This document shows positions 7,209-37,993 of a stretch of 64,000 bases of DNA, one piece after another; position 1 is the first letter of the stretch, and each line of letters opens with the position of its first letter. The stretch is taken from contig NZ_LR732328.1 of assembly GCF_902506325.1 (NCBI RefSeq), positions 1,175,071 through 1,239,070 of the forward strand, read 5' to 3'. Origin of the DNA: Limnobacter sp. 130 (GTDB taxonomy: Bacteria; Pseudomonadota; Gammaproteobacteria; Burkholderiales; Burkholderiaceae_B). The notes under the pieces are model-generated. The model had not been told where the DNA came from. It made no database searches and was given only the letters and a program-made list of their open reading frames with translations. The translations under genes were made by a program, and so were the position numbers.

Positions 7209-8633
7209 ATGCATGCCCAGCACTCGGCCCTGAAACAACACGCCTCCCACACCCGGGTGCAACTACCCTCTAGCGGGTTTTTCGCATTTTTAAGCAAGCT
7301 GTCTGGCGCGGCAGCCAACGCCACTGATTTCGCCTCAATACGCATCAATGCCGACTGGCTGTGCGTGGTGGTCAGTTTTGTTTGCCTTGCATTTGCTGCG
7401 CTGGAAGGCTTTGCCTACAACAACATTGCCCAAGCCCTCGGCTGGGGAATTCCTTTGTTTCTAGGCAGCCTGGTGGTCACCCGGCTATATGCAGGCCACC
7501 CCTTGACCATGCACATCAATGCGCTGCTGCTGGTCGGCATGGGCGCACTGCACGTGCACATTTCACGCGGTTTGCCTGAATATCATTTCAGTTTTTTCAT
7601 GTTGCTGCCAGTCATGCTGGCCTATCGGGATACACGCCCCCTGCTCAGCATGGGCCTGTTCATTGTGATTCATCACATTGTGTTCGACATGCTTCAACAA
7701 GCGGGCTTCGACTGTTATATATTTCGCGGCCCCTTTTCAGGTCTGCCCGCAGTAGCCCTTCATAGTTTCTATATCGCCACCGAAGTGTTGCTGCTCACAG
7801 TGATTGCACAGGTGCTTCGCCAACACGCACTGGCTGCCGAAGAAAGCACCAAATTACTGGCCTATCTGGACAAAGAGAAAGGTATTAACCTGCGGGTTCG
7901 CGCACAAACCGATGAACTGGGCAGAACATCCCCCATGGGCCAGGTGTTCAATGATTACGCCGACAACATGGCGTTCGTGGTTGCTGCATTCAAAATGCTC
8001 CGGACCGACATTCGCGAATTGTCGCAAATTGCCAAAGAATTGGGCTCGGACAACAACCAGCACTTTGAAGAGAGTTCGCTGGCTTCCAAAAAGCTGCGCG
8101 ACTTCGTCCAAAGTCTGGGCAATCAAACACGCATGGGTCAAAGCACTGCTGAATTGTCCAAAAAGGTCACAGAGGACAGTTTTGATCTGCTCAATGAACT
8201 GAATCAATCTTTGGAGCAGTTGCAACGCATCAGCAAACAGGCATTTGATTCAAGCCAGCAAATACAGGCCTTGCACAAGGAAGTCCAGAAGGAGCTGTCG
8301 CCAGGCGCTGCCCAACAACTGCAAGCCACCCTGACAACACTGGACAATCTGAATGAGCGTACCAATGCTTTCATGGGCAGAATGGATGTTCTGAAAAGTG
8401 GTCTGAGTGCCATTGAAAATCAGCTGGTGTCGATCGACAGATCAACGCACCAATGGGTTGAAAATGGTCATGGCAATCAACGCCAGGGCTGGGAAGTTCT
8501 GGGTGCCATGGAAGGCATGCAAACGCGCACCGAGAGTGCATTCCGTACGCTGGCCAGCACGGTTCAAACCATTTTGCGTTCCGATGATTTGATGCGTGAA
8601 ATGGAGAAGCGGCTTTCGAGGTTCGATGTATGA
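7209..8633 (+). CDS. Polytopic membrane protein with HAMP-like linker and coiled coil, chemoreceptor-like without signalling tip
   Basis: I cannot name this 474-residue protein. It has six hydrophobic segments at about 50-69, 80-95, 102-117, 127-140, 146-165 and 181-203. A HAMP-like linker follows near 215-255 (DELG motif), then about 220 residues of Gln/Leu/Ser-rich coiled coil. The layout is that of a chemoreceptor, but the conserved hairpin tip that contacts CheA/CheW is absent. Its stop overlaps the start of a PAS-GGDEF-EAL gene (ATGA), so it probably senses something for, or scaffolds, that c-di-GMP enzyme. The function is inferred from structure and context only. Confidence 0.6.
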   Translation: MHAQHSALKQHASHTRVQLPSSGFFAFLSKLSGAAANATDFASIRINADWLCVVVSFVCLAFAALEGFAYNNIAQALGWGIPLFLGSLVVTRLYAGHPLTMHINALLLVGMGALHVHISRGLPEYHFSFFMLLPVMLAYRDTRPLLSMGLFIVIHHIVFDMLQQAGFDCYIFRGPFSGLPAVALHSFYIATEVLLLTVIAQVLRQHALAAEESTKLLAYLDKEKGINLRVRAQTDELGRTSPMGQVFNDYADNMAFVVAAFKMLRTDIRELSQIAKELGSDNNQHFEESSLASKKLRDFVQSLGNQTRMGQSTAELSKKVTEDSFDLLNELNQSLEQLQRISKQAFDSSQQIQALHKEVQKELSPGAAQQLQATLTTLDNLNERTNAFMGRMDVLKSGLSAIENQLVSIDRSTHQWVENGHGNQRQGWEVLGAMEGMQTRTESAFRTLASTVQTILRSDDLMREMEKRLSRFDV

Positions 8634-11026
8634 GCCTGAGCAATATTCTGGATGATCCATTGATCAATGAATTGCTGGACAGTGGAGCCTTTCGCTACGC
8701 CTTGCTGGGACACGTCACGGGTGAACTCAGCCTGATCGCTGCAAGCAAATTGTTTCGGCAAGAACTGGGATTCAAATCGGGCGGTGAATTAATTGTGAGC
8801 CGGTATGGCATGTCCATTTACCGCGCCCTGTCCAACGCCTTGCTTCGCCAACAAGGCTGGACCGGCCATGTCAAGGTGAATGAGCAGTGGTTTCGTTTGC
8901 AAATGCTGGCCCATGGCGAATTTGGCGTGCTTCACGAACAAGAGGTCAAGCATGGCAAACCGTCATCGGCACTGCCAACGACCAACACCCCAGAGCAACG
9001 GCTTGATTCAGCCGAGAGCGCCGACAAAAAAATTCCAACCAGCGTGTTACTCAGTGTTGACGACAAAGGGCGAATCAAAAAGGTCAGCCCTTCGCTGGAG
9101 GAGTTTTTGGGGCAAAGCAGCGAACAACTGCAAAACCTGGATGCTGCAAACCTGGTGTTTCGCACCGATGTAGGTCAGTTCAAGCGGGTGCTTGACCAGG
9201 TGAAATATCAAACCGGCTCTACCGATGGTTCCTTTCGCCTGCGCAACACCTTCAATGATGTGGTGTACTTCGACTGGACAGCTGCCTGTATTGGTGCAGA
9301 CATTCTCCTGATTGGCCGTTCGAGCAACATTCATCTTGAAGAAGCCTTGCTGAAAAGCGAAGAACGAATCAACAACATTCTTGAGTCCATGGACGATGCA
9401 TTTTTTGCCATCGACATGAATGGCTACGTGAACTACCTGAATGAGAAAGGCGCCGAATTGCTGGGCAAAAGTGCTGCACTTTTGCTGGGTCGAATGGTGT
9501 GGGAACGTGCCCCCCATTTGAAGAAAACGCCGCTGTTTAAATATGTGAATCAGGCCAAAGGCAGCATGCAGCCTGAAACATTTCAGTGGCAAGACCCCGC
9601 CAATGACATGTGGTACCAAGTCAAGGCCTACCCCAGCGACGAGCTGATCTCGATTTTCTTCACCGACATCAGTTCGATCAAGCGCAATGAAAGCAAAATG
9701 CGGCATCAAGCCACACACGATCCGTTAACGGGTCTTCCCAACCGCCTGGCCTTGTCGCAAACCCTGCAAGAACTGCTTGGCAACGACCAGGTTCAGGACT
9801 TCAAACTGGGCTTGCTGTTCATCGACCTGGACGGCTTTAAAGCGGTGAACGACACGCTTGGCCATGATCGGGGAGACGACCTGCTGATTGCCGTATCCAA
9901 ACGCTTGCGCAGCGTGGTTCGAAGTTCCGACATTGTTGCCCGTTTGTCGGGCGACGAATTTGTAATCACCCTGCCCTACATTGCCGACCAAGACACCGCA
10001 TTCAATGTGGGCCGCAAGGTGGTGGATGCCGTCAGCAAAAAACCGTTTGAGCTGGGTGAAAAGAAAATTTATGTGGGTGCCTCTGTGGGTGTGGCCCTGT
10101 TCCCAACCGATGCCACCGATGTTGAGGGCTTGCTGAAACATGCCGACATTGCGATGTATCAGGCCAAGCAGGCCGGGAAAAATACGGTGCGCGTGTTCCA
10201 CACAAATATGAGTGCCACCTTGCAAACCAAGGTTGATCTGGAAAATGATTTGCACGATGCAATTTTGCACGACCGCATCGAATTGCATTACCAACCGCGA
10301 TTCAATGCCAACGGCTCCATTTGTTCCGTTGAGGCCCTGGCGCGCATGCGTTCACGCACTGGCGAGCTGATTCCCCCTGCCCAGTTCATTCCGATCGCTG
10401 AGGAAACAGGACTGATCATTCCCATGGGTGAACAGGTCATGCGCAAAGCCTGCAAATGGCTGAAAGACACCAATAAAAAACTGAAGAATCCAATCAGTGT
10501 TTCTGTGAATGTATCGGGTATCCAATTGCTGGATGGCAAACTGTGCGGCACTGTCGAAAAGGTGCTTAAACTGAGTGGCCTGCCACCCAAACTGCTTGAG
10601 CTTGAATTGACCGAAACCGTATTGATGCAGAATCAGGACACTGTTTTACAAGACCTGAACCGCTTGCATGAACTGGGCGTTTCTTTGTCGATCGATGATT
10701 TCGGCACGGGTTATTCCTCGCTGGCCACCCTGCACCGCATGCCGGTTCAATCCATCAAACTCGACCGCTCGTTTGTGAGCAATTTGCCCAACAAAACCGA
10801 CAGCGTTATCTTGTCCCGAACCGTATTGGCCATGGCAAAGGCGCTTGGTCTGGGCGTGGTGGCTGAAGGCGTTGAAACCGCCGAGCAACGGGACTTTCTG
10901 ATTGAATCGGGTGTACTTGAGCTACAGGGTTTTGGACTGGCCCGACCAATGACTGCCGACGACTCAAGGCAGTTTGTGTGGGCGCAGCAGATCACCAGCG
11001 ACAAGGCGAAGAAAATTTTGGCGTAA
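8630..11026 (+). CDS. PAS-GGDEF-EAL c-di-GMP turnover protein
   Basis: A 798-residue soluble protein with an N-terminal region of unknown type (1-110), PAS-like domains at about 115-230 and 245-350, a GGDEF domain at about 357-525 and an EAL domain at about 545-790. The cyclase signature reads SGDEF (near residue 440), one change from GGDEF. The phosphodiesterase motifs are intact: VEALAR, LELTETVLM, IDDFGTGYSSL, KLDRSFV and VVAEGVET. It can therefore probably degrade c-di-GMP, and synthesis is uncertain. It overlaps the preceding membrane-protein gene by four bases, which suggests they are made together. Confidence 0.88.
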   Translation: MSLSNILDDPLINELLDSGAFRYALLGHVTGELSLIAASKLFRQELGFKSGGELIVSRYGMSIYRALSNALLRQQGWTGHVKVNEQWFRLQMLAHGEFGVLHEQEVKHGKPSSALPTTNTPEQRLDSAESADKKIPTSVLLSVDDKGRIKKVSPSLEEFLGQSSEQLQNLDAANLVFRTDVGQFKRVLDQVKYQTGSTDGSFRLRNTFNDVVYFDWTAACIGADILLIGRSSNIHLEEALLKSEERINNILESMDDAFFAIDMNGYVNYLNEKGAELLGKSAALLLGRMVWERAPHLKKTPLFKYVNQAKGSMQPETFQWQDPANDMWYQVKAYPSDELISIFFTDISSIKRNESKMRHQATHDPLTGLPNRLALSQTLQELLGNDQVQDFKLGLLFIDLDGFKAVNDTLGHDRGDDLLIAVSKRLRSVVRSSDIVARLSGDEFVITLPYIADQDTAFNVGRKVVDAVSKKPFELGEKKIYVGASVGVALFPTDATDVEGLLKHADIAMYQAKQAGKNTVRVFHTNMSATLQTKVDLENDLHDAILHDRIELHYQPRFNANGSICSVEALARMRSRTGELIPPAQFIPIAEETGLIIPMGEQVMRKACKWLKDTNKKLKNPISVSVNVSGIQLLDGKLCGTVEKVLKLSGLPPKLLELELTETVLMQNQDTVLQDLNRLHELGVSLSIDDFGTGYSSLATLHRMPVQSIKLDRSFVSNLPNKTDSVILSRTVLAMAKALGLGVVAEGVETAEQRDFLIESGVLELQGFGLARPMTADDSRQFVWAQQITSDKAKKILA

Positions 11027-25490: not shown

Positions 25491-26858
25491 ATGACCGAAC
25501 AACCAGCCGACCCTGCCAAAGCGTTTGAAGACCACGCCCCAACGCCGGTCAGGCCCAAGTTTGTTCGGCAACTGGGTCAGTTTTCTGCGGGCTTGCTGGT
25601 CGCAGCTTTGGTCTTATTGGTGGCCGGTTTGTTTGCCAAAAGCCAATCGGACAACATTCGCAATACCCAACTGACCCAAATCAACCTGGTGGAAGGCCGC
25701 GTTCAACAAGAATTGCTGGCGCTCAATGGCCCGGGCAGTGAAACCGTGCAACCTCAGGGTTTAAAAGCCCTGCTGGGAATTGGCCAACAGGTCAGCCAGC
25801 AAAACAAAGGGATCCAGTGGTTCGGTGGCCTGCACAGCCAAACCTTGCAGGTGTTGTTAACGCAAAGTATTGAAGCACTCTCGCGCCCGGTCGCAGGCAT
25901 TGATTCAAACCTGGACACGCAGCGCCAACTGGAAATCCAGTTGCGCCTTGACACCCTGCCCAAACTCGCACAACTCAAATCGCACATTGCCCAAGCCACC
26001 AACGGCTATCTGGTCTTGGTATTCGGCTTGACCACATTGTTGGCAGCGATCGGCGTTGCTTTGGGTATTCAATGGAACACCCACCGAAAAACCCTGGCCC
26101 TAAGCCGCAGGGTGCAAATGTTAAGCCGGGCACTGCACAGCCAACAAGAAAACGACCAGAAGCGGGAAGGTGCGCATGCAGCTTTGGAAGGCGTATTAAA
26201 AGCACTCAACAGCAACCAGCAACTGGAACACCGTGGCACGCTGATGCAAATTGGGCAGCAGCTGGAGGAATTGAATCAAAGTGGACGTGCCGTGTTGCAG
26301 TTCGCCAAATCATTCCACCAGTTGTCTACCCAAGGTACACAGGTGGTGAAATCCACCCTCAACAGTGAGCAACGCAACGCCAAGGCCGAAAACCACATGG
26401 AAATCATGCAAACCCAGCTGGAAGGTTTGCGCTCCGACATTCGAAGTGCGGCACAGGGTTTGCGCAAGGCTGGCGAGGTAAGCCGACAACTTTTAGGCCG
26501 GCTTGACGCATCGCAAATGGAATTGACCCTGACAGAACCGGAAAACAGCCGGCAATTGCAGCAATTGGTGGAGCAAAGCCAGCAGGCCCTGAAAGAATCC
26601 ATTGAAGGTTTGGTGCTGGCCAGCCAGAAAATCAATATGGGCCAACATGAATCGAACAAGTTGGCCGAGTACATGGCCGTGAATCAAACCGCTTGGTCCA
26701 ACTTGCTCAGCCAGGTTGAACAGGTTGCTGAATCTGCGTCGCAAGAATCTGAAAGTGCCTTGCGCCTGGCCAAACGGCTGATGGAGAAAAGCCAACAGAC
26801 CGCGCTGGCTTCACCGGGCAATCAAGCCGCCAAGGCACCACCGCAACTGCTGCCCTGA
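25491..26858 (+). CDS. Two-helix membrane protein with long coiled coil, possible PilJ relic
   Basis: Not recognised by a specific family. The 455-residue protein has a membrane helix at about 32-50, a periplasmic part, a second helix at about 172-195, and then about 250 residues of Gln-, Leu- and Ser-rich coiled coil. This matches a chemoreceptor layout, but the conserved signalling tip is absent. It follows rubredoxin at the position where pilG-pilH-pilI-pilJ usually stand in related genomes, so a degenerate or diverged PilJ is a fair guess. Its 3' end overlaps the convergent radical SAM gene by 37 bases. Confidence 0.55.
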   Translation: MTEQPADPAKAFEDHAPTPVRPKFVRQLGQFSAGLLVAALVLLVAGLFAKSQSDNIRNTQLTQINLVEGRVQQELLALNGPGSETVQPQGLKALLGIGQQVSQQNKGIQWFGGLHSQTLQVLLTQSIEALSRPVAGIDSNLDTQRQLEIQLRLDTLPKLAQLKSHIAQATNGYLVLVFGLTTLLAAIGVALGIQWNTHRKTLALSRRVQMLSRALHSQQENDQKREGAHAALEGVLKALNSNQQLEHRGTLMQIGQQLEELNQSGRAVLQFAKSFHQLSTQGTQVVKSTLNSEQRNAKAENHMEIMQTQLEGLRSDIRSAAQGLRKAGEVSRQLLGRLDASQMELTLTEPENSRQLQQLVEQSQQALKESIEGLVLASQKINMGQHESNKLAEYMAVNQTAWSNLLSQVEQVAESASQESESALRLAKRLMEKSQQTALASPGNQAAKAPPQLLP

Positions 26859-29737: not shown

Positions 29738-31741
29738 ATGCTTTCATCGCAAAAAAACGGACTGGTGCGTGCATTCATCTCCAACAGCGCCGTCATATCG
29801 CTCAATTCACGCACGCTATTGGTTTGCGTCACCGCCTTGTTGGCCCTGTCGCTCTGCATTTACGCCATTTTGAACAATCAGTTCAGCGCACAGCATGCTG
29901 AACACATTGACCAATTACTCACGGCCAAAGCGCAAGCCATCGACCACAGCGACCACACAGGGCACGACCACGCCCTGGCCATGACACCGGTCTATTACCA
30001 CTCCGGCAATCTTGAAGGTGCGCAGGGTACGTCGCATTGGCCCAAAGGCTGCGAATTGGTGCCCACACTACCCGGGTCTGAAATTCGTCGTTTTCAATGC
30101 GGAAATGGCATCCGTCTGCATGCCCTTCAGGCCATGCTTCCGCCTGAACACGCGGCAGGCCAGGTCATCACCTTGTGGGCAACACACATTCCCAATGCCT
30201 CATTGTTGAACATGCAGCTGGAGGATCTCCTTGGTCTCGCCGCCCTGATGCTGGTCATCAGCACTTTGTGCAGTCGCTGGATCAGTCAATCCATTACCCA
30301 ACCTTTGGGCGAAATTACCGCCAGTGCGCAACTGATGGCCGACGGTAACTACGATTGGCGGCTTTCCGAGAGCTCAATTGGCGAAATCAACCAACTGGCG
30401 TTCACATTCAACCACATGGCCAAAAGCCTGCAAGAACGCGACAAAGTCATTCGGCGAACCGCGTACAAAGACCAGCTGACTGGACTGGACAACCGCGCGT
30501 ATTTGACGCTCGCATTAAGGGAACGAACACAAAGCGCCCGCGAGCCATTGAGTATTGTGATTTGGGGCATCGACAACCTGGACAATATCAATGAAGTGCT
30601 GGGACATGATGTTGCCGACAAAGTGTTAATCAAAGTGGCACGCAAGGCCAGTCGCATTTGTCAGGAAAACCTGGTGATTGCACGGCTTGAAGGCAATATT
30701 TTCTGCATGTTGTTGCCGCGAGAGCTACTTGAAAACATGTTGAAAAAGCACACACTGAAACGCATGCTTCACGGTTCACTGCGGGTGCAAGACTACCAGC
30801 TGGATATTCAAAGCCACGCTGGCCTTGCCCATTACCCCGAGCACGGCCAATGCCCCGAGACACTGATGCGCAGGGCAGAAATCGCCCGCCAACTGGCCAA
30901 GAAAACACGCCAAACCAGCATTGTGTTCGAAGCCCGGCTTGAACAACGCTCAGCCAACCGCCTTGAGCTGATTGCCCAACTGCGCAGGGCCATCACCGAC
31001 GACGAGTTTTGTCTGTACTTTCAGCCCAAGCTAAACCTTCGAACCAACAGCATCAATCAGGCGGAGGTGTTGTTGCGCTGGAATCACCCTACCCACGGTT
31101 TGATTGCGCCAGGCGCCTTTATCGAACTTGCAGAGCAAACAGGCATGATTCGCGAGATTACCCGCCTGGTCCTCAAACAAACCTACGCCATCATCAATCT
31201 GTGCGCGAATCAAAACATCAGGCTGTCGGTGAACCTGTCCGCCATGGATCTGGAAGACTTCAGCCTGATTGATTTCATGCAACACATGCACAGCAAGCAA
31301 CCCGACGCCTCACGCCATATTGTGCTGGAAATCACCGAAAGCGCTGCGATGCGAGACCCCGAGCAAGCGCTGGACATACTGAATCAACTGGCCGCCATGC
31401 ATTTTCAGATCGCGGTGGACGACTTTGGCACGGGCTACTCCTCCCTGGCTTATTTGAAACGCTTTCCGGTGACTGAACTTAAAATTGATCGCTCCCTGGT
31501 ACAGGGCGCAGACATTGATACCGATGGACAAATCATTCTTGAATCAACCATTGAAATGGGACACATCATGGGTCTGCTGGTGACGACCGAAGGCGTAGAG
31601 ACACAAGCCGAATACGAACTGGTCAAAAAACTGGGGGCCGACTATGTTCAAGGCTTCTGGTTGTCCAAACCCATGTCATTTGACGAATTCAAATTGAAAC
31701 ACCTGATTGGCAATCACGATCAAATGGTTCATCAACTCTAA
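29738..31741 (+). CDS. HAMP-GGDEF-EAL membrane protein, cyclase site degenerate
   Basis: A 667-residue inner-membrane protein with helices at about 27-46 and 162-182 flanking a His-rich periplasmic region (HSDHTGHDHAL), a HAMP linker at 183-240, a GGDEF-fold domain at about 245-400 and an EAL domain at about 415-660. The cyclase signature is lost (RLEGNIF in place of GGDEF). The phosphodiesterase site reads EVL instead of EAL but keeps the catalytic Glu, and EITES, DDFGTGYSSL, KIDRSLV and TEGVET are present. Likely a c-di-GMP phosphodiesterase or receptor. The His cluster could bind metal, which is speculation. Confidence 0.85.
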   Translation: MLSSQKNGLVRAFISNSAVISLNSRTLLVCVTALLALSLCIYAILNNQFSAQHAEHIDQLLTAKAQAIDHSDHTGHDHALAMTPVYYHSGNLEGAQGTSHWPKGCELVPTLPGSEIRRFQCGNGIRLHALQAMLPPEHAAGQVITLWATHIPNASLLNMQLEDLLGLAALMLVISTLCSRWISQSITQPLGEITASAQLMADGNYDWRLSESSIGEINQLAFTFNHMAKSLQERDKVIRRTAYKDQLTGLDNRAYLTLALRERTQSAREPLSIVIWGIDNLDNINEVLGHDVADKVLIKVARKASRICQENLVIARLEGNIFCMLLPRELLENMLKKHTLKRMLHGSLRVQDYQLDIQSHAGLAHYPEHGQCPETLMRRAEIARQLAKKTRQTSIVFEARLEQRSANRLELIAQLRRAITDDEFCLYFQPKLNLRTNSINQAEVLLRWNHPTHGLIAPGAFIELAEQTGMIREITRLVLKQTYAIINLCANQNIRLSVNLSAMDLEDFSLIDFMQHMHSKQPDASRHIVLEITESAAMRDPEQALDILNQLAAMHFQIAVDDFGTGYSSLAYLKRFPVTELKIDRSLVQGADIDTDGQIILESTIEMGHIMGLLVTTEGVETQAEYELVKKLGADYVQGFWLSKPMSFDEFKLKHLIGNHDQMVHQL

Positions 31742-35728: not shown

Positions 35729-36316
35729 ATGTTGAAGCAATCCCTAAAATCGTTATCCATTCTGGCTGCCTTGCTGTCCATGCACTCCGTTGCATCTGCC
35801 ACCTGTCAAGGCAACGACTGTCAAGTTGAAATCGACGCCAACATTGACTTTGACAGCAGCTATTATTTGAGCGAAAACCACAACGGCATTTTCATTCAAA
35901 GCAACATCGGCACCAACGCTGCAATCGTTGACCTGCAAAACGTGGTCATGCGCGACAACGGCAATATCACAGGCTCCGCGCAAGCAGTGGGCAACAACAT
36001 TGCCATTTCTCTCAGCGCCTCCTCGACCGTGCCTGTTCGTCACGTCTCACAGAGCAATTACGGCGATCAACTGGCCTCCGTCAATGTGGCCCAGCGCAGC
36101 ACCTCCAAAACTGGCGAAGTACTGATCGAAGCCGTTTCAATTGGCAACAACTTCAGCCTGAACCTGGACAATGCCAGCCTGGCTGAATTGTCAGTGGCCC
36201 AGTGCAACGTGAGCGACAACGTGGCTGTGGCCGAATACCGTTGGGACCCCACCCGCCTGACCGCTTCTGCTACAGCAGTAGGCAACAACATTTCAATTGG
36301 CAGTGCACGTCCTTAA
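35729..36316 (+). CDS. Secreted protein with GNN repeats, putative holdfast/curli-like subunit
   Basis: A 195-residue exported protein with a 24-residue signal peptide (cleavage after VASA). The mature part is Asn/Ser/Ala-rich with imperfect repeats: AQAVGNNIAISL, AVSIGNNFSLNL and ATAVGNNISIGS, alternating with SQSN/AQRS/AQCN strands. This is the look of a beta-solenoid or amyloid-like subunit, not of an enzyme. ATG 35729 has GGAG ten bases upstream. It is first in a set with an HfaA-like protein and a CsgG/HfaB lipoprotein, so it is likely the secreted or anchored substrate. No family is recognised with certainty; HfaD is a possible distant relative. Confidence 0.65.
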   Translation: MLKQSLKSLSILAALLSMHSVASATCQGNDCQVEIDANIDFDSSYYLSENHNGIFIQSNIGTNAAIVDLQNVVMRDNGNITGSAQAVGNNIAISLSASSTVPVRHVSQSNYGDQLASVNVAQRSTSKTGEVLIEAVSIGNNFSLNLDNASLAELSVAQCNVSDNVAVAEYRWDPTRLTASATAVGNNISIGSARP

Positions 36317-36329
36317 TTGAACTTTTTTC

Positions 36330-36366
36330 CCCCAAGCGACAACCTACAGCCAAAGGTCGCTTGGGG
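36330..36366 (+). repeat. Strong stem-loop between the GNN-repeat gene and the hfaA-like gene
   Basis: CCCCAAGCGAC and GTCGCTTGGGG form an 11-bp stem with a 15-base loop in the 96-base gap. No U tract follows on either strand, so it is probably an RNA-stabilising or processing element, or a leaky terminator. It would allow the upstream gene to be expressed more than the export genes. Confidence 0.6.
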
Positions 36367-36412
36367 TGAATTCCTACCCAAAGCCCCCTCAAGAAACCAA
36401 GGAACCATTCGA

Positions 36413-36733
36413 ATGAAATTACTCAAAATCTGTATTGCCACGCTGGCCTTCAGCTTTGGCGGCGCATTCGCCCAAACCTTTGAAGGCAACGTCAGCTCAT
36501 TCGAAACACCCTATGGCATGCGCAGCGTAACCGACATTGACTCCCCCGCAGGCACCCGCCGCGACGCCAATTTCAACCGCACCCAAGTTGACTCTCCAGG
36601 CTGGGGATTCGCATCCACCGCCATTGGCAACCTGATCAATGTGCAAACCGAAGGCAACAACAACACCGTTGTCATTAATGCGACCCAAATCAACAACGGC
36701 TCTCAAAACGCCACGATTGACGGCGGTTTCTGA
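36413..36733 (+). CDS. hfaA: HfaA-like holdfast anchoring protein
   Basis: A 106-residue exported protein with a 20-residue signal peptide (ending GGAFA). The C-terminal half, FASTAIGNLINVQTEGNNNT followed by VVINATQINNG and GF at the end, matches what I know of the HfaA family that anchors the Caulobacter holdfast to the cell envelope. It shares the GN/GNN style with the upstream protein. ATG 36413 has AAGGAA upstream. The CsgG/HfaB-like gene follows 43 bases on, the same hfaA-hfaB order as in Caulobacter. Assignment is from recalled family features plus context. Confidence 0.65.
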   Translation: MKLLKICIATLAFSFGGAFAQTFEGNVSSFETPYGMRSVTDIDSPAGTRRDANFNRTQVDSPGWGFASTAIGNLINVQTEGNNNTVVINATQINNGSQNATIDGGF

Positions 36734-36776
36734 GAACCCACGTCACGCACTGATACTGAATAAACAAAGGCCCACT

Positions 36777-37928
36777 ATGTTCTGCTACCCGCTTCCAAAA
36801 TTTGCATTTATTTCGGTGCTTGCTGCATCGGCCAGTGCATGCACAACACTACCCTCCTTCAGTGAAGCGGAGTATGTCAGCCCCTTCGACGGCGCAAGCG
36901 TGGTGGAAAACACAACCCGCTACAGTCCCGCGCTTGAATGCCTCAAGCCGATGGTGGGCGGGCGCGGCCCCAATTCAAAACGATTCGCGGTTGGCCGGGT
37001 CAGCGACTTCACGGGCAAGGAAGATTTGGTCAACGGCAAGCGCATCACACAGGGCGCTGCCTTGATGGTCATTTCCGCTTTGGCAAAAACCGGGGTTCCA
37101 ATCGTTGAGCGATTCGACACCACCATCGCCGACATGGAACTGAAGTACGCCGACAACAAGTTGATTACAGACAACCCTGACAGCAAAGCACACCGGCAAA
37201 TTTTTTCAGGCACCCTGCCGGGTTCGGACTATCACATTGTGGGTGGCATCACAGAAGTGAACTACAACATTCGCAGCGGAAGCATTGAATCGTCCATTCG
37301 CTTCATTGGTGCCGCAGCCCGCTACTTTGTCATGAACGTGGCGGTCGACCTGCGCGTCGTGAATACAAAAACGCTTGAAGTTGTGAACATACAAAGTCTT
37401 CAGAAACAAATTATCGGCACAGAATTAAATGGCGGCTATTTCCGACTATTCAGTGATGGTTTGGTCGACATCAATTCAGCCGAGCGCACCCAAGAACCCA
37501 TTCAAAAAGGTGTTCGCATGGTGATTGAACACGCGGTATTCAATATGCTGACCGAGATGAATAATTTGTCGGCGCAAAGTTGTGCGCGGCTAAGTACCGC
37601 TGAATCAACTGCCAAATCAACTGCCAAATCAACTGCCAAATCACCCACTCAATCACGTGCGAACAACCCAATCGTACTTACCCCGCCACCGGCAGAAACA
37701 TCATCAAAACAAGACCCCAACATTGTGATCGACCCATACACCGGGGAAATCATTCGCGAAGCGAGCAATCGCAACACCGCGGGCTCATCGCAAAGTGAAG
37801 TGACTGAATTGAAAGGCTTGTTTGGCAATGGCAACAACGCGGCAACCGCGCCACAAGAATCAACAAGCAACACCACCCGCGAAATGCAGGAAAAACTGCT
37901 GTGGGGCAATCGCCCACAAATTCGATAG
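36777..37928 (+). CDS. hfaB: CsgG/HfaB-family outer-membrane lipoprotein
   Basis: A 383-residue lipoprotein with lipobox ASAC (Cys22). The core, RFAVGRVSDFTGKEDLVNGK, ITQGAALMVISALAKTGVPI, VERFDTTIADMELKYADNK and GSDYHIVGGITEVNYNIRSG, is the HfaB subtype of CsgG. CsgG proteins form nonameric outer-membrane export pores for curli; HfaB is needed for holdfast anchoring. After residue about 270 there is an unusual tail of about 110 residues containing (STAK) repeats and an Asn/Ser/Thr-rich stretch. ATG 36777 gives a proper signal. A bidirectional terminator follows. Confidence 0.82.
   Translation: MFCYPLPKFAFISVLAASASACTTLPSFSEAEYVSPFDGASVVENTTRYSPALECLKPMVGGRGPNSKRFAVGRVSDFTGKEDLVNGKRITQGAALMVISALAKTGVPIVERFDTTIADMELKYADNKLITDNPDSKAHRQIFSGTLPGSDYHIVGGITEVNYNIRSGSIESSIRFIGAAARYFVMNVAVDLRVVNTKTLEVVNIQSLQKQIIGTELNGGYFRLFSDGLVDINSAERTQEPIQKGVRMVIEHAVFNMLTEMNNLSAQSCARLSTAESTAKSTAKSTAKSPTQSRANNPIVLTPPPAETSSKQDPNIVIDPYTGEIIREASNRNTAGSSQSEVTELKGLFGNGNNAATAPQESTSNTTREMQEKLLWGNRPQIR
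37599..37646 (+). repeat. 12-bp tandem repeat inside the hfaB-like gene, about four copies
   Basis: Units GCCAAATCAACT at 37611-37622 and 37623-37634 are flanked by near copies at 37599-37610 and 37635-37646. Each unit encodes four residues (STAK), so copy-number change would keep the frame and alter only linker length. Confidence 0.85.
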
Positions 37929-37944
37929 ACAAACACACACCCAA

Positions 37945-37978
37945 CAAAAAAGCCTCAGCATGTGCTGAGGCTTTTTTG
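37945..37978. terminator. Bidirectional terminator after the hfa-like locus
   Basis: AAAAAAGCCTCAGCA and TGCTGAGGCTTTTTT form a near-perfect stem with a very short TG loop. It serves both the hfa-like locus (plus) and the CorC-type gene (minus), which converge. Confidence 0.9.
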
Positions 37979-37993
37979 TTGCCGGCTTGGCGA

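Follow-up and report, generated by a model that had tools for sequence, protein, structure and literature searches.

Gene content of the locus and identity of its products

The window analysed here, a stretch of 64,000 nucleotides, contains three consecutive reading frames on the + strand, coding for an exported repeat protein (hereafter X), an HfaA-like protein and an HfaB-like lipoprotein (Table 1). Their translations were checked, and all three lie where the earlier note had placed them. Two genes of the opposite strand flank the unit: nadA upstream of X, with 87 bp between the two reading frames, and a CorC-type gene downstream of hfaB. The hfaA gene directly precedes hfaB with a gap of 43 bp. 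No promoter was found in a scan of the region (1.5 expected in shuffles). The region contains six terminator-like palindromes against 3.6 expected from shuffles, so that the one following hfaB is a weak signal when taken alone.

Table 1. Coordinates of the genes and sequence features of the locus
Feature	Position	Strand	Description
X, HfaD-like exported repeat protein	35729-36316	+	195 aa; three repeats of ~50 residues, each ending in a G-N-N motif
Hairpin in the X-hfaA spacer	36330-36366	+	11-bp stem; 36330-36340 pairs with 36356-36366
hfaA-like gene	36413-36733	+	106 aa; signal peptide by eye; C-terminal GN..NV....N.T....Q.N motif
hfaB-like gene	36777-37928	+	383 aa lipoprotein; CsgG-type core at residues ~69-268; low-confidence tail of ~115 residues
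Terminator-like palindrome	37942-37981	listed on -	downstream of hfaB, before the corC-type gene

The 106-residue protein was matched by the NCBIfam HfaA model NF037934 with 48.5 bits (E 9.9e-13), the best stretch covering model positions 82-115; the curated equivalog cut-off of 50 was missed by 1.5 bits. No other family fitted this protein in the Pfam and NCBIfam searches, and its HfaA-like nature is borne out as a homology. In an alignment of 20 rows (12 from Limnobacter and the MAG of its sister genus, 8 from Alphaproteobacteria), ten columns were invariant, of which seven fall inside the C-terminal motif. The invariant residues include R50, N55, G72, N73, V77, G81, T85, Q92 and N94.

The 383-residue protein was matched by the HfaB model NF037935 with 283.3 bits (E 1.5e-84) over model positions 3-261 of 264, without reaching the cut-off of 300. 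The curli CsgG model NF011731 gave it 33.8 bits and the Pfam CsgG model 64.6 bits. Its assignment to the HfaB subtype of the CsgG lipoproteins thus holds, again as a homology. A sequence search against the PDB retrieved five distinct sequences, all of them CsgG, with E around 2e-7. Cys22, of the lipoprotein signal, is invariant in the 18 aligned HfaB rows. Because both scores miss their curated cut-offs, the HfaA-like and HfaB-like proteins are, as judged from these profiles, divergent homologues and not certified equivalogs.

The structure predicted for HfaB has low confidence, with a mean pLDDT of 57.4, and within this model the core matches the fold of CsgG (4uv2, E 8.5e-11), in line with the CsgG core proposed previously. 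The last ~115 residues lie mostly below a pLDDT of 50. Two elements of this tail, an end motif M-x-E-K-[LM]-L-[WY]-G and a stretch I-D-P-x-T-G-E, were both kept in the tails of all 10 relatives compared; exceptions in the HfaB alignment are L024, with I-D-S instead of I-D-P, and L015, in which that stretch is missing. A short tandem repeat encoding repeated S-T-A-K was also observed in the hfaB tail of the window (37603-37642), and is absent from the other 17 alignment rows.

No Pfam or NCBIfam model matched X, and the HfaD model NF037936 found no match either in X or anywhere in its genome. In alphaproteobacterial loci an HfaD gene commonly follows hfaB. Using motif and position, HfaD-like proteins were collected in 46 of 66 loci, and an HMM was built from their repeat units. 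With this HMM, all 15 X proteins (the window, 13 named loci and the sister-genus MAG) scored between 19.5 and 45.2 bits, the X of the window obtaining 20.5 bits with three HfaD-type repeats. As controls, the best of 2000 shuffles (500 for each of four X proteins) reached 6.7 bits, 158 ORFs of the window, X aside, did not exceed 6.4 bits (5.5 for the HfaA frame) and 589 ORFs of other loci did not exceed 3.8 bits (3.1 for a curlin-like ORF). The repeat units having been picked by a motif also present in X, the shuffle control favours X and is only a partial test. In the reverse search, an HMM built from X recovered 27 of the 46 HfaD-like proteins above the inclusion threshold, with a strong composition bias.

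When NF037936 was compared with 13 X proteins, three were matched at E <= 10, with one clear match, the X of L. litoralis (33.2 bits, E 3.4e-8, for a cut-off of 100). The two others were matched weakly (E 0.053 for the sister-genus MAG, above 0.1 for the other), at a level where unrelated models were equally good. Short alphaproteobacterial HfaD-like proteins from canonical operons reached 28.0 and 29.5 bits with the same model, and a full-length one from Caulobacter 441 bits.

The AlphaFold2 model of X, computed from 13 sequences (mean pLDDT 68.6, pTM 0.69), consists of three repeats of three beta strands at residues 54-95, 105-147 and 155-193, where block pLDDT ranges from 66 to 90. A fold search with this model gave 116 matches, none of them at E <= 0.001. 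FapC was the top match (E 0.0099, TM 0.13), which was not taken as evidence of homology.

On the evidence of its repeats, X is HfaD-like without being HfaD. A set devoid of any HfaD-like part, which the curated HfaD model alone would support, is not the best reading because of this repeat evidence. The earlier note had described a third exported protein with GNN repeats; the repeats are present, while their HfaD-type identity had been overlooked, so that X is not a novel extra component. With X counted as HfaD-like, the unit holds all three kinds of anchor component. The Caulobacter order proposed in that note was found for the adjacency of hfaA and hfaB; the third protein being recognised as HfaD-like, the complete order is HfaD-like, HfaA, HfaB and not A-B-D.

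The spacer between X and hfaA folds into a strong hairpin in all 14 Limnobacter spacers, although their sequences differ between distant species. Compared with shuffles, 13 of the 14 spacers, one of them cut to its first 110 bases, had z values of -1.3 to -4.9, below -2 in 8 cases. Among comparison spacers, four hfaA-hfaB spacers gave z from +0.6 to +1.1, and the nadA-X spacer, with -1.55, was on a par with the weakest of the 13. No U-run follows the hairpin in the window. The hairpin may shield the X mRNA and raise X over HfaA and HfaB, in which case the HfaD-like protein would be the most abundant product.

Distribution and ancestry

The named relatives of the genome are Limnobacter, which confirms the assignment to a betaproteobacterium. 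Relatives are encoded at 582 places at least, of which the best 80 were analysed. These comprise 13 Limnobacter-type loci (nine so titled and four MAGs under wider names), one other Burkholderiales MAG and 66 others, 63 of which bear alphaproteobacterial titles and three only Proteobacteria or Pseudomonadota. Among these best 80, every one of the 13 named Limnobacter-type loci has nadA, X, hfaA and hfaB in this order. Their downstream flank contains corC in 10 and thiC in 12; one locus (L100) has neither within 6 kb beyond hfaB. With the same genes at the same place in 13/13 named loci, the three-gene set is far beyond chance.

The locus of the sister-genus MAG (L079) is ordered nadA, GGDEF gene, repeat protein, HfaA, HfaB, then thiC. 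Its repeat protein was missed by tblastn with X; the repeat HMM gave it 19.5 bits and the HfaD model 12.8 bits, the latter not significant, and it was taken as X-like from its position and these two scores. The GGDEF (diguanylate cyclase) gene lying between nadA and the X-like gene (L079:10331-11338) was found only in this MAG, the nadA-X gap of Limnobacter being too small for a GGDEF gene beside the unit. Taken together, the conserved place points to a three-gene block that is probably old and vertically inherited in the Limnobacter group.

We also searched genome samples drawn at increasing taxonomic depth. In the family sample, HfaB exceeded 200 bits in 19 of 250 genomes, the next score being 61.6. 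These 19 are the 16/16 genomes of the genus, the sister-genus MAG (G285) and two genomes of another genus (G375 and G395). HfaA was detected in 17 of the 250, namely the 16 of the genus and G285, all 17 having HfaB above 200 bits. Two of the 300 genomes sampled from the order exceeded 200 bits with HfaB, both from the Limnobacter genus, and in the class sample the source genome stood alone among 274, the next HfaB score being 39.3. The phylum sample (398 genomes) contained 17 genomes from outside the class above 170 bits with HfaB, 11 of them over the cut-off. As the samples were drawn evenly and are not exhaustive, rarer carriers may exist. For the genomes sampled, the occurrence outside the known lineage is upheld. 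The literature searched, largely without subscription journals, contained no report of hfa genes in Limnobacter or in any other betaproteobacterium. Automatic annotation may already name these genes, and HfaA and HfaB appear in a list of adhesion product names (PMC10128055).

Presence in 16/16 genus genomes at one conserved locus would also fit a constitutive role. HfaB-type secretion could have been reused in the envelope, for outer-membrane integrity or for predator or phage resistance, with no function in adhesion, and no Limnobacter adhesion data were found in the literature searched. We consider such an envelope role quite improbable, since all three proteins resemble the anchor set.

To follow the ancestry of HfaB, two trees were computed, with nine CsgG rows in the first and four in the second. 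Both were built without L094, a near-copy of L090. The second was built without L062, L120, L114, L090 and five of the nine CsgG rows, and kept 24 of the 64 remaining non-Limnobacter loci, drawn at random. HfaB was separated from CsgG at 100% support in both trees. Limnobacter and the sister-genus MAG formed one clade (99/98), and the HfaB of G375 and G395 grouped with L063 and L064, which belong to a different class (99/100). A single clade of all betaproteobacterial HfaB was rejected (p-AU 2.3e-5), as was a single clade of all others (2.2e-7), in tests framed post hoc after the first tree was seen. Long branches in the first tree (L062, L102, L120 and others) make exact places unsure. In the second tree, the forks placing Limnobacter next to the main alphaproteobacterial clade were weak (83/55 and 85/76), and the program warned of long branches meeting, namely L065-L067 and the CsgG root. 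We name no donor because of these weak middle forks and meeting long branches. Because the clade tests reject one betaproteobacterial HfaB group, the trees favour at least two transfers of HfaB into the family, with the caveats of long branches, weak forks, subsampling and post hoc testing.

A second betaproteobacterial arrangement of HfaB was observed at L080:8028-14190 (G395) and L081:3103-10122 (G375). It comprises a 225-aa exported protein, an HfaB with an extra C-terminal region and an exported repeat protein of ~1280 aa, beyond which, in L081, lies another frame of 202 aa that starts similarly. This lineage resembles the Limnobacter unit in having an HfaB (222-223 bits) beside exported repeat proteins; it differs in that its HfaB groups with L063 and L064. 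The neighbours were considered as candidate HfaA or HfaD and obtained no credible score with the HfaA and HfaD-repeat models, so only HfaB was counted for this lineage.

The same trees bear on the relationship with curli, whose pore protein has the same CsgG-type fold. No match to CsgE or CsgF was found in the whole assembly, an E. coli control being positive in both searches, and the genome (assembly 99.83% complete) has no second CsgG-family gene. The absence of CsgE and CsgF, reported previously for the window, is therefore true of the assembly as a whole. The CsgG core also goes with HfaB and not with curli CsgG. The CsgG domain match could have suggested an ordinary curli system with its remaining genes elsewhere; for this assembly, a single CsgG-family gene, the missing CsgE and CsgF and the 100% grouping with HfaB refute it, and we give it almost no credit.

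Polysaccharide context and proposed function

In Caulobacter, HfaA, HfaB and HfaD keep the holdfast on the cell, HfaB being the likely translocon (PMC6707917, PMC5362036). Deletion of any hfa gene leads to shedding of the holdfast, and the surface location of HfaA and HfaD depends on HfaB (PMC6707917). The Limnobacter unit shares with Caulobacter crescentus HfaA-HfaB-HfaD a CsgG-core HfaB lipoprotein, the HfaA C-terminal motif, HfaD-type repeats and the grouping in one compact unit. Besides the gene order, it differs by the size of X (195 aa and three repeats, against ~400 aa for Caulobacter HfaD), by an HfaA lacking a middle stretch and by the HfaB tail. Closer in size are the HfaD-like proteins of Rhizomicrobium electricum (L115) and strain SO-S41 (L126), with 222-226 aa, a C-terminal A-x-G-N-N as in X and HfaD model scores of 28-30 bits, similar to that of the L. 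litoralis X; their loci differ from Limnobacter in having the canonical order, with the HfaD-like gene behind hfaA and hfaB. Neither stalks nor polar holdfasts are known from Limnobacter.

There is no polysaccharide gene beside the unit, and no holdfast-specific synthesis gene was identified when the genome was searched for Poly_export, Bac_transf and BcsB. One Poly_export and one Bac_transf match were found, 15.5 kb apart, both within a stretch (C3, ~215-256 kb) containing many sugar-nucleotide and glycosyltransferase-like genes by eye; beyond these two matches, only a Wzz-type protein was confirmed there by Pfam. The cellulose synthase protein BcsB is present in 16/16 genomes of the genus, in one of them only as a fragment of 88 positions where a contig begins. 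After BcsB in the source genome come a large repeat-type protein and further ones resembling a bcs operon (by eye, except BcsB). L. alexandrii LZ-4, whose genome is L092 in our analysis, is reported to make EPS, attributed to cellulose from bcs genes (PMC12628687). Cellulose and the polymer made by the Wzx/Wzy-type locus of this genome are the candidates for what would be anchored.

The two c-di-GMP proteins announced for the window were recovered as a PAS-GGDEF-EAL protein (8630-11026) and a HAMP-GGDEF-EAL protein (29738-31741). Neither is adjacent to the unit, the former lying ~25 kb and the latter ~4 kb away, and nothing connects either of them with it. Two frames of 474 and 455 aa (7209-8633 and 25491-26858, respectively) had no Pfam match at E <= 0.001.

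We consider it probable that the Limnobacter unit belongs to the HfaABD kind of system, in a divergent and permuted form, in which the HfaB pore exports HfaA and an HfaD-like protein as a tether for a surface polysaccharide. The part of this reading carried by the sequences comprises the HfaB homology with its CsgG-type core, the HfaA homology, the HfaD-type repeats and the conservation of the block in Limnobacter. By analogy with Caulobacter and CsgG, the HfaB lipoprotein would form an outer-membrane pore without CsgE or CsgF, through which HfaA and the HfaD-like protein would be exported. Outside the cell, the two would assemble into a beta-rich, amyloid-like tether retaining the polysaccharide, and the tail of HfaB may serve as the docking site of a periplasmic partner. 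What had been proposed earlier on homology to HfaA and HfaB, on lineage and on the absence of curli is retained, and the Caulobacter order and the composition of two known components plus a new one are given up.

The lack of a neighbouring polysaccharide gene would also be expected of a protein fibre standing on its own, as in a minimal curli-like system, where HfaB exports X and HfaA and these polymerise as an adhesive coat holding no polysaccharide. The N/Q-rich beta repeats of X and HfaA are in keeping with it, as would be an over-production of X if the hairpin has that effect, and FapC and a CsgA fibril rank 1 and 3 in the fold search with X, at TM ~0.1. X has only three repeats, however, and HfaB, HfaA and the HfaD-type repeats belong with anchor proteins and not with curli. 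A fibre of this kind is a possibility to which we give clearly less weight than to a polysaccharide tether.

Extending the tether reading beyond this genus is more speculative. HfaABD might be a transferable polysaccharide-tethering module that is not specific to holdfasts, with HfaB having reached the betaproteobacteria at least two times. In such a module, the polymer of Limnobacter would most plausibly be cellulose, because BcsB occurs in 16/16 genus genomes, and perhaps be under c-di-GMP control. We put this forward as a tentative suggestion, more doubtful than not.

The anchor-like set described here, with its permuted order and its occurrence outside the usual lineage, is present throughout the genus as sampled. 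The Caulobacter holdfast is a very strong natural adhesive, and how it is fixed to the cell is described as unresolved (PMC6707917, PMC5362036). Limnobacter, a cultured genus of another class whose anchor-like set includes a smaller HfaD-like protein of three repeats, offers a simpler system, with which it could be asked whether the anchor is specific to one polysaccharide or accepts any, and whether the partner is set by the tail of HfaB.
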